A stretch of 41,509 nt of DNA from Acidobacteriota bacterium (GTDB lineage: Bacteria; Acidobacteriota; Blastocatellia; Pyrinomonadales; Pyrinomonadaceae). The stretch is from contig JAIVJG010000010.1 of assembly GCA_020200155.1 (NCBI GenBank), positions 1-41,509 of the forward strand, read 5' to 3'. Positions 25,400 through 28,299 of this stretch are shown piece after piece. How positions within the stretch are numbered: the stretch's first letter is position 1; each line of letters starts with the position of its first letter. Under the pieces are notes generated by a model. It did no database searches and was not told the DNA's origin. It worked only from the letters and a program-made list of their open reading frames with translations. A program made the position numbers and the translations under genes.

Positions 25400-25469
25400 C
25401 AAGCGTGCGGCACAGTCAGCGGTGCGCCTGCTTCGCGGCAGTCCGAACAAGCGGAATTTCTGTCCTGAC

Positions 25470-25994
25470 ATGATTGAGAAAAAGATTGCCATCAAAGGCG
25501 TCGAGTGGGAGTACACGACGGGCGGGCGGGGGGAGCGTGCGGTGCTGATGTTCCACGGCGCGGTCGGCGGGGCCGAGGGCGTGGGCTGGCTCGCGGACGC
25601 GCTCTCGGCGGAGGCAGCCGAACGCGTCCGGCTCGTCAAAGAGCGCCTGAAGGATTATTTCGACAACCGGCTGACTAAAGATGTCTTGCTGTCGCGCGTC
25701 GCCCTGAGCGTTGATTTCTGTAAGAACGAATCCTACAGTCCCGCCGACTTCGAGAATTGGCCGGGGCGCGTGTTGATTATCGAATCGGCCAACGACCCCA
25801 TGATCAACGCGGAGGAGCGTCGGCGTTTGCGCGAAGCTTACCCGCGCGCACTCGTCTGCGTATTCGAGGACGCGGGGCACTTGATTCCACTGTTGAGGCT
25901 GGAAGAGTTGGTGGGAGTCATCAGGGCGTTTATGTATGAAGACTATGCGCGACCCGAAACGATAGAGCAGTGTTCCATACACGAGGAGTGTTAA
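25470..25994 (+). pseudogene. Alpha/beta hydrolase with internal deletion of the nucleophile region
   Basis: A 174-residue ORF. The N-terminus (GERAVLMFHGAVGGAEGVGW, 21-40) is the first strand and oxyanion HG of an alpha/beta hydrolase. From residue 49 the sequence resembles a late cap/helical region and the C-terminal catalytic strands, with the acid D109 in IIESANDPMI and the histidine H137 in DAGHLIP. The whole middle, which should hold the nucleophile elbow GxSxG, is absent, and the protein is roughly 90-100 residues shorter than usual for the family. The junction lies near position 25613 (LSAE/AAERV). The frame is kept, so a shortened protein could be made, but it should not be a working hydrolase. 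It lies 2 bp upstream of the thioredoxin-like gene, so translation may be coupled. Confidence 0.65.
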
Positions 25995-25996
25995 CG

Positions 25997-26413
25997 ATGT
26001 CCGACGCACAACAGACGAGTTCGCACCCGCACTTCAACGACCGTGGGGCTGTCCGCTGGCACACGCGCTTCGCCGACGCGCTCGCAGAGGCGACACGCGA
26101 AGGCAAGCACATCTTCGTCGAGTTCGGGCGCTACGCCTGAGGCAACTGCCGCGCTCTCGTCGAGGGCGTCATCCCGCAGCCGTCAATCGCCGCGCTTCTC
26201 AGACAGCACTTCGTCTGTCTCGCATCGGACTGCGACCATCCGGAAGCGGAAGTAAAAGCCATCGGGCGCGACCACATGCCGCACGCGCGTGCGCTGCCGT
26301 TTCTGCTCTACCTCGATTCGGGCGGCAGGTTCATCCACGGCACGCAGGGCGGCGTCTCTGCCTACACTTTTCGCGAAGACCTTGAGCGCGTCGCCAAAGG
26401 AAATGTAGGATGA
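25997..26413 (+). CDS. Thioredoxin-like protein with in-frame TGA, probable selenoprotein (UGNC)
   Basis: ATG 25997 follows GAGGAG at ideal spacing and opens a 138-codon frame. It is interrupted only by TGA at 26138-26140 (codon 48) and ends at TGA 26411-26413. Before the TGA comes KHIFVEFGRYA, after it GNCRALVEGVIPQPSIAALL, then HFVCLASDCD and LPFLLYLDSGGRF. This is a thioredoxin fold with beta strand, active site, helix, strand and cis-Pro-type ALPF segment. The TGA falls exactly where the first Cys of a CGNC motif belongs, giving U48-G-N-C51. Residues after the TGA keep protein-like composition to the natural end. A hairpin just downstream fits a bacterial SECIS. The product would be a thiol/selenol redox protein in the cytoplasm, as no signal peptide is seen. 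The alternative is a Cys-to-stop nonsense mutation; the damaged hydrolase next door keeps that possible. Confidence 0.7.
26151..26169 (+). promoter_or_regulatory. Candidate bacterial SECIS stem-loop
   Basis: In the mRNA GCGCUCUC (26151-26158) pairs with GAGGGCGU (26162-26169) in an 8-bp stem including two G-U pairs, with apical loop GUC. The loop's first G is 19 nt after the TGA (18 nt between them). Bacterial SECIS elements lie inside the coding region just after the UGA, with a G (often GU) at the start of the apical loop. A lower CUGC/GCAG helix (26146-26149 and 26176-26179) can extend it. Confidence 0.55.
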
Positions 26414-26455
26414 AGCACATGAAATACTGAGTGCGGAATCGAGAGGGATGAAATT

Positions 26456-26836
26456 ATGACAAAAGTGAATGACGGGAAACTCGCCGGGCGAACGTCTCGG
26501 CGGCAATTCGCAAAGTCTGTGGCCGCCGCGCTCGTCGCCGCGCCAATCGCTTCGTCCATGACGAGCGCGCAGACTCCGTCGTCTAAAGAACCGAAAGCGC
26601 CCCCCAACCCGCAACCCACGCCGACGCCAGCGCCGTCGTCGTCTGCGCCGCCCAAGCCTTCGCCGGTCGTGGAGGCTTACGCGGAAGTGGCTCGCGTGCG
26701 ATTCGGCGAGCGCCTGACGCCGGAAGAGTTCGAGCGCGTCAAACGCGACCTCGACGGCAACGTGCGCGCGGCTGAACGATTGCGAGCTATCAAGCTCAAG
26801 AATTCGGACGAGCCGGATTTCATTTTCAGCGCGTGA
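26456..26836 (+). CDS. Tat-exported small protein next to the amidase
   Basis: A 126-residue protein with a twin-arginine signal, SRRQFAK at residues 14-20, followed by a hydrophobic stretch (SVAAALVAAPIASSM) and a likely cleavage after TSAQ region. A Pro/Ser/Thr-rich linker (about 40-68) leads to a short helical domain (PVVEAYAEVARVRFGERLTPEEFERVKRDLDGN). No catalytic motif is seen and the family is not recognised. GAGAGGGATG upstream of ATG 26456 gives a clear start. Its end nearly abuts the amidase, to which it is probably translationally linked. It may be an exported partner of that enzyme, but this is only inferred from position. Confidence 0.8.
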   Translation: MTKVNDGKLAGRTSRRQFAKSVAAALVAAPIASSMTSAQTPSSKEPKAPPNPQPTPTPAPSSSAPPKPSPVVEAYAEVARVRFGERLTPEEFERVKRDLDGNVRAAERLRAIKLKNSDEPDFIFSA

Positions 26837-26874
26837 GATTCTTTCAATCATCGAATAAGAAGAGGCTTAACGGA

Positions 26875-28299
26875 ATGCTCCCGGACGACATTTTCTTTTC
26901 AACTGTCAGCGAACTCGCCCCGCAGATACGCGCGCGGCGTATCTCTCCCGTCGAACTCACGGAAGGGTACATCCATCGGCTTGAGACTTTCGGCAAGCGG
27001 CTCGGCGCGGTCGCGACGGTGACGCGCGAGACGGCGTTGCGCGAGGCGCGTGAGGCCGAAGCGGAGATCAAACGCGGCCACTACAGAGGCCCTCTGCACG
27101 GCATCCCTTACGGCGTCAAAGACCTCATCGCGACGCGCGAGGCGAACACGACATGGGGAGCCGCGCCGTACAAGGATCAACGCTTCGACTTCGACGCGAC
27201 CGTCGTGCAAAAACTACGCGAGGCCGGAGCTATCCTGACAAGCAAGCTGGCGATGATCGAGCTGGCGGGCGGGATGGGATACAACCAGGCCGGCGCGAGC
27301 CTGACGGGCGCGTGCCGCACGCCCTGGAACACAGATTTCTGGAGCGGCGGCTCTTCTTCGGGGCCGGGCGCGTCGGTCGCTGCCGGTCTCGTCGCTTTCG
27401 CCATCGGCTCGGAGACCTCCGGCTCGATCATCACGCCGGCGGCCTTCTGCGGTGTCTCCGGCTTGAGGCCGACTTACGGCGCAATCTCTCGCCACGGCGC
27501 GATGGCGCTCTCGTGGACGCTCGACAAGCTCGGCCCGATGTGTCGCTCGGCTGAAGATTGCCGCATCGTGCTCTCTGCGATTGCCGGTCGAGACACGCTC
27601 GACCCGACCTCGCGCGACTCGAACACGATTCCGCGCTACGGCGACTTGGGGAAGGCGGCGAGCAAAACGCGACGAGGCAAGCTGCGCATCGCCGTGATGA
27701 AGGATTCATACGAGAAGGCGCAGCCGGAAGTGAACAAGAATTTTCTCGCGTCGCTCGACGTGCTGCGGCGCACGGCCTCCGTGGAGATGGACGTGAAGAT
27801 GCCGGACACGCCCGGCGTGGCGGTCGGCGTGATCGTTGACGCAGAGGGCGCGAGCGCCTTCCGCGACCTCATCGAGTCCGGGCGCGTCAAGGAACTCGCT
27901 TCGCCCGAAGGCCGCGTCGGCGGCTACGCGGCATCGCTCGTCACCGCCGTTGATTATCTCCACGCGATGCGGCTGCGTGCGCCCGCGCGTCGCCTGTGGG
28001 CAGAGTTTTTCAAGAAGTACGACCTGCTCGTCGCGCCCTCGCGCTCGACCGTCTCGTACCCCGTTGATAAGACTTTCGATCAAGCCTACCCCGGCATCGC
28101 CGCCACTTCGCCCATCGGCGCAGCCAACCTCGTCGGCATCCCCGCCATCTCCGTCCCGAACGGCTTCGGGCAGCACGGACTCCCGACCGGCATCCAGTTC
28201 GTCGGCCCCGCGTGGGGAGAGATGACCGTGCTCGAAGCCGCGACCGCTTACCAGTCCGCGACCGACTGGCACAAGCGCCGTCCGCCTCTCGGCAGTTAA
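26875..28299 (+). CDS. Amidase-signature family hydrolase
   Basis: A 474-residue Ser-cisSer-Lys hydrolase that cleaves carboxamide bonds. It has the catalytic Lys in GVKDLIA (K82), the Gly/Ser-rich SGGSSSGPGASVAAG with the cis-Ser, and the nucleophile S184 in GSETSGSI. The length and fold match GatA-like amidases. No GatB or GatC is nearby, so a role in tRNA-Gln transamidation is unlikely and a free amide substrate is more probable. ATG 26875 with AAGAGG upstream is preferred; GTG 26833, which overlaps the previous stop, adds 14 residues. No signal peptide is seen. The 3' end overlaps by 4 bp the stop of the convergent CheA-like gene, with no terminator between. Confidence 0.9.
   Translation: MLPDDIFFSTVSELAPQIRARRISPVELTEGYIHRLETFGKRLGAVATVTRETALREAREAEAEIKRGHYRGPLHGIPYGVKDLIATREANTTWGAAPYKDQRFDFDATVVQKLREAGAILTSKLAMIELAGGMGYNQAGASLTGACRTPWNTDFWSGGSSSGPGASVAAGLVAFAIGSETSGSIITPAAFCGVSGLRPTYGAISRHGAMALSWTLDKLGPMCRSAEDCRIVLSAIAGRDTLDPTSRDSNTIPRYGDLGKAASKTRRGKLRIAVMKDSYEKAQPEVNKNFLASLDVLRRTASVEMDVKMPDTPGVAVGVIVDAEGASAFRDLIESGRVKELASPEGRVGGYAASLVTAVDYLHAMRLRAPARRLWAEFFKKYDLLVAPSRSTVSYPVDKTFDQAYPGIAATSPIGAANLVGIPAISVPNGFGQHGLPTGIQFVGPAWGEMTVLEAATAYQSATDWHKRRPPLGS

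Follow-up and report, generated by a model that had tools for sequence, protein, structure and literature searches.

The stretch of DNA analysed here (the window, 41,509 nucleotides) is one contig of a fragmented acidobacterial genome of 312 contigs. Its forward strand carries a gene with start ATG at 25997 and terminal TGA at 26411-26413, in which one internal TGA and no further stop occurs. The features of this locus are:

25983..25988, plus strand: GAGGAG, probable ribosome-binding site 8 bases 5' of the ATG, read from sequence
25997..26413, plus strand: putative selenoprotein gene, 138 residues and stop, Thioredoxin_7-like, motif GRYA-U-GNC
within 25997..26413, plus strand: N-terminal signature HPHFNDRG of the encoded protein
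26138..26140, plus strand: in-frame TGA, codon 48, inferred selenocysteine (Sec); the same aligned codon is TGA, TGC or TGT in the family
26147..26149, plus strand: codon of Cys51, the putative resolving Cys of U-G-N-C, invariant in alignment A3
26151..26169, plus strand: bSECIS-like RNA hairpin, 8-bp stem GCGCUCUC/GAGGGCGU, loop GUC

An earlier sequence-only reading had given the start, the internal TGA at codon 48 and the end at exactly these positions, and the GAGGAG that it claimed upstream was located as well. The frame translates as MSDAQQTSSHPHFNDRGAVRWHTRFADALAEATREGKHIFVEFGRYA-U-GNCRALVEG... and is coding sequence with homology on both sides of the in-frame UGA: in Pfam, the read-through product matches Thioredoxin_7 (PF13899) over residues 20-107 with 45.6 bits (cut-off 27), a match that continues across the TGA. 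Hence the description of a 138-codon thioredoxin-like frame split by a single TGA stands, as does the placement of that TGA at the first redox position before GNC, where it opens a UxxC motif. An Rfam scan of the window gave zero matches.

Upstream lies an alpha/beta hydrolase gene (25470-25994, plus strand) that has lost about 105 internal codons in frame, among them the GGSFGG nucleophile segment that is retained in its relative L109. What remains at either end is about 60% identical to longer relatives, which have some 320-334 aa. The deletion is a separate event that leaves the selenoprotein gene untouched. Downstream, 26456-28299 (plus strand) holds an ORF of 126 residues, whose N-terminus is Tat-like (RRQF) and which has no Pfam match, and an amidase gene (PF01425, 306 bits), the beginning of which is overlapped by the ORF.

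The gene is rare in its order, being detected in 2 of 119 genomes at E <= 1e-12. The homologue in Acidobacteria bacterium isolate MAG9 (L018, the same locus as L039), from another genus of the same family, shares 75% identity and has TGA at the equivalent of codon 48; the one in Blastocatellia bacterium isolate SSF51 (L037, the same locus as L040), from the same class, shares 66% and also has TGA. A third relative from that class, L038, is about 65% identical, carries TGT (Cys) at this position and forms an uninterrupted ORF of 136 residues. Both kinds of orthologue that the sequence-only reading had named as support for Sec, those with TGA and those with Cys at position 48, are thus present, and the further disabling mutations that would have spoken against it were found in none of the relatives. 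A scan of named genomes yielded 36 loci, mostly from Planctomycetota, with TGA or TGC/TGT at the exact aligned codon; Planctomycetes bacterium Pla86, whose genome is complete, contains a Cys member. After removal of duplicates this first set comprised 22 distinct TGA members, the window included, and 16 with TGC or TGT. For a held-out set, 392 genomes from the phylum to which Pla86 belongs were searched independently with a profile, and 39 of them gave matches. The 19 new members analysed have TGA (nine) or Cys (ten) at the site, and their aligned frames contain no TAA, TAG or second stop. In total 31 distinct TGA members (window included) and 26 Cys members are known from Acidobacteriota and Planctomycetota, and wherever the codon is not TGA it is TGC or TGT, a pattern that chance does not explain. 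Such interchange of TGA and Cys at one codon is classical comparative evidence for selenocysteine. A search of viral contigs yielded no relatives and in plasmids a distant DsbD was the sole match. One distant thioredoxin-domain homologue (L019, G046:C25:64788-65150, minus strand; 31% identity), with one TAG inside the match, was rejected as lying outside the family.

In a tree of 38 members, in which branches are long and many forks unresolved, the Sec/Cys label requires six changes, at least three of which are forced by well-supported branches. The four members from Acidobacteriota, three Sec and one Cys, form one group (support 100/97).

The part of the gene beyond the TGA had been described as natural protein sequence, and its codons are indeed under purifying selection. 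When the window is compared with L018, the post-TGA part shows 19, 9 and 36 differences at codon positions one, two and three; dN and dS are 0.18 and 0.90 after the TGA, as compared to 0.13 and 0.84 before it. From this third-position bias and the low dN relative to dS it follows that the post-TGA part is kept as protein.

The candidate bSECIS element lies just 3' of the UGA, with its apical loop of 3 nt at 18 nt from that codon and a folding energy of -10.5 kcal/mol. Published rules for bSECIS elements demand a loop of 3-9 nt with a G in the first two loop positions, a stem of 4-16 bp, a distance of 16-37 nt from the UGA and an energy <= -7.5 kcal/mol (PMC13188914), and the window hairpin satisfies all of these. 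In the first set, hairpins that obey the rules occur in 21 of 22 Sec members versus one of 16 Cys members (Fisher P = 1.6e-8), the lone Cys member being L070; the stem of Sec member L071 is weaker. Since the thermodynamic z-score of a single hairpin is uninformative (that of the window hairpin, -0.58, is unremarkable), codon shuffles and covariation were used. When synonymous codons were shuffled, the combined P value was about 6e-11 in Sec members and 0.24 in Cys members; these values are optimistic because related sequences are not independent. Of all cells in the Sec alignment, 93.8% are paired in the 8-bp register; compensatory changes occur at five of the eight stem pairs and 25 double-change cells are observed versus 8.0 +/- 2.3 in shuffles. 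In a control in which the stem partner was slid by 1-3 bases, only 0-3 such cells were obtained. Cys members in the same register have 57.8% paired cells versus 57.5% in shuffles and give no covariation signal. All nine held-out Sec members pair at seven or eight of the eight positions in the same register, and the ten held-out Cys members at two to seven. A looser search of the constraints was passed by four of these ten and by five of the 26 Cys members overall; these may be chance occurrences in G+C-rich DNA or relics of recent Sec-to-Cys changes. The covarying bSECIS, absent from the sequence-only reading, adds mechanistic evidence for Sec.

Components for decoding UGA as Sec, named earlier as a search that could refute the proposal, were all found in the organism's own genome: two tRNA-Sec genes with anticodon TCA, selA (541 bits, cut-off 268), selB (372 bits, cut-off 242) and selD (362 bits, cut-off 125). 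The selD gene (L105, C94:17558-18484, minus strand) carries one in-frame TGA and therefore probably encodes a selenoprotein itself. The presence of tRNA-Sec in 104 of the 118 genomes of the order shows that Sec use is ordinary here; the machinery is thus necessary, not discriminating, and was rejected as sole evidence. The two tRNA-Sec genes (L001, 1497-1595 on C121; L002, 1497-1595 on C46) differ at several positions, and two or more copies are also seen in some relatives (G001, G009, G055 and G111). Weak or no clear tRNA-Sec matches were obtained for the genomes of L072 (G519, 49.4 bits) and L066 (G513, 45.5 bits), which are probably incomplete assemblies; L072 itself nonetheless combines TGA with a perfect bSECIS-like stem.

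These data bear on the other ways in which the internal TGA might be explained. It could mark a pseudogene, a thioredoxin-like gene broken at codon 48 by a point change within a decaying region, and the neighbouring hydrolase that lacks its GGSFGG segment together with about 105 internal codons would fit such decay. The sequence-only reading had called this hydrolase defective, which is correct, and had for that reason kept the pseudogene explanation open, which purifying selection and conservation across two phyla now argue against: TGA occupies the same codon in 31 distinct members, the held-out matches are free of TAA, TAG and second stops, and substitutions after the TGA are mostly at third positions with a dN/dS of about 0.2. 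Because of this comparative evidence a pseudogene is very unlikely. In a genome as fragmented as this one, the TGA might also be suspected of being a sense codon that was garbled in sequencing or assembly. However, TGA with a matching hairpin recurs in assemblies that different projects produced independently (L039, L040, L042, L046, L052 and others), and errors would not be accompanied by a covarying hairpin, which makes such an artefact extremely improbable.

Some lineages recode UGA as Trp or Gly, so that the codon might be read as another residue, be it Trp under genetic codes 4 or 25 or by near-cognate readthrough. Terminal TGA codons nevertheless behave as normal stops, at 26411-26413 as well as in relatives, homologues show Cys and never Trp at the site, and the genome has tRNA-Sec and selA, selB and selD, with a bSECIS at the site; we give this option hardly any weight. 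Finally, the real gene could be antisense, as long minus-strand ORFs of 222 aa (26183-26851) and 197 aa (25416-26009) overlap the locus. Many such ORFs are expected from the high G+C content, while homology, third-position bias and Pfam match all concern the plus-strand frame; on this evidence, with antisense families covered by ORF clustering, the chance that the antisense explanation is correct is practically negligible.

We are therefore highly confident that the gene encodes a selenoprotein, a small and probably cytosolic thioredoxin-fold oxidoreductase in which UGA codon 48 is translated as Sec by means of SelB, tRNA-Sec and the bSECIS, as the earlier reading had proposed for the TGA. The case is strong but computational: reading frame, conservation of the site, interchange of Sec and Cys in orthologues, hairpin covariation, machinery, post-TGA selection and predicted fold support it, and actual Sec insertion is what we infer from them. 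SelB with tRNA-Sec would decode codon 48 as selenocysteine under direction of the hairpin just 3' of the UGA. The Sec48-Gly-Asn-Cys51 motif would then carry out the redox chemistry, in which Sec48 may attack a disulfide or an oxidised substrate and Cys51 would resolve the resulting selenenylsulfide.

The function of the protein is deduced from its fold only. AlphaFold2 modelling, using 27 family members and with Sec modelled as Cys, predicts a complete thioredoxin-like fold (pLDDT 93.5, pTM 0.88). A helix (49-58) is predicted directly after Sec48, which places the redox pair at the helix N-end, and the invariant P101 is found just ahead of a predicted strand (102-106); the model hence displays the fold, the position of the redox pair and the conserved Pro before a strand that characterize thioredoxin-fold proteins. 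By profile and by fold, the closest solved structures are DsbD-gamma-like, thioredoxin and DUF255/Thioredox_DsbH domains. The nearest are PDB 2fwe, 7tkv and 3ira, with also 2kuc and 2lst. In structure alignments, identity to those of DsbD-gamma (the C-terminal domain of DsbD) and DUF255 type is about 15-24%, and most of them belong to larger proteins as domains. To our knowledge, the known DsbD-gamma and DUF255/Thioredox_DsbH members use Cys. The N-terminus of the window protein shows no evident export signal, which makes a redox role in the cytosol most likely, and the most likely function is that of an oxidoreductase acting on thiols or selenols, with DsbD-gamma and DUF255 domains as its relatives; redox activity, its direction and its partners are deductions of this kind.

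Among known selenoprotein families, NF041199 (Trx7/PDZ) is the best NCBIfam match and is matched by 26 of 27 family members. It has the same Thioredoxin_7 domain and Sec in its redox motif, but the window protein reaches only 33.5 bits, where the cut-off is 300, and covers 58 of 390 positions. The Trx7/PDZ (seleno)protein, reported from GOS as containing PF13899, has a PDZ domain and Sec as second residue of the motif, CxxU (PMC9312934, PMC13188914). The window protein, in contrast, has Sec first (UGNC, or UxxC), is a stand-alone protein of 138 residues and has no PDZ domain according to Pfam. Sec is likewise first in two thioredoxin-fold selenoproteins with UxxC, Sec-containing thioredoxin (PF00085) and thiol:disulfide interchange selenoprotein (PF13098) (PMC13188914, Table 1). 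The window protein scores 23.1 for PF13098, below the cut-off of 27, PF00085 is unreported and Pfam assigns Thioredoxin_7; the N-terminus HPHF[DN]DRG is a mark that separates its family from both. The VPGUxxT thioredoxin-like proteins (NF041382, NF041383) and TsoB (NF045694) are weakly similar in the thioredoxin domain, with 17-22 bits against cut-offs of 275-805, and differ in motifs and domain make-up.

Thus no NCBIfam model fits the family, and the 119-family table of a 2026 review, in which Trx7/PDZ appears as CxxU next to several further thioredoxin-like families with UxxC, has no stand-alone Thioredoxin_7 UxxC family (PMC13188914). No description was found in the literature searched, for the most part the main text of openly available papers, and an earlier mention elsewhere is possible. 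The family is therefore called apparently undescribed, in line with the probable new selenoprotein proposed from the sequence, and it is of a well-known kind. For the wider picture, in which the HPHF[DN]DRG UxxC proteins of Planctomycetota and Acidobacteriota form an undescribed family that has switched repeatedly between Sec and Cys, the SECIS being gained or lost along with the switch, part of it acting as a redox unit with DUF255 proteins, we consider the evidence good enough to call it likely.

The link with DUF255 comes from eight loci of Planctomycetota or unclassified MAGs (L047, L058, L060, L061, L062, L063, L065 and L069) in which a DUF255 gene is next after the family gene, as identified by Pfam in three and by sequence clustering with these in the others. 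The ends of the two genes overlap by 1-4 bases in L058, L060 (family gene end 2368, DUF255 gene start 2365) and L065, the DUF255 start lies within about 25 bases in L047 and L069, and in the remaining three the earliest possible start is inside the family gene. This arrangement suggests that in some loci the family gene and the DUF255/Thioredox_DsbH gene form a two-gene redox unit and, given the overlapping or close ends, makes it probable that in several Planctomycetota both act in the same thiol-redox pathway. The neighbours in the window, the deleted hydrolase upstream and the 126-residue ORF and then the amidase downstream, are different.

With similar numbers of Sec and Cys members, the family is an addition to the selenoprotein catalogue used by annotation pipelines; because there is no model for it, gene finders truncate its genes at the UGA, split them or miss them. 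Related pairs such as L040 (Sec) and L038 (Cys) are well suited as a natural test of the advantage of Sec over Cys and of how SECIS elements arise or disappear, and the family offers a foothold on DUF255 proteins, the function of which is poorly known. Several members, some of them distant (L054, L057, L064, L066 and L067, all with Cys, and L068 and L073, both with Sec), are longer, most with C-terminal extensions and signal-peptide-like N-termini, and are probably exported versions.
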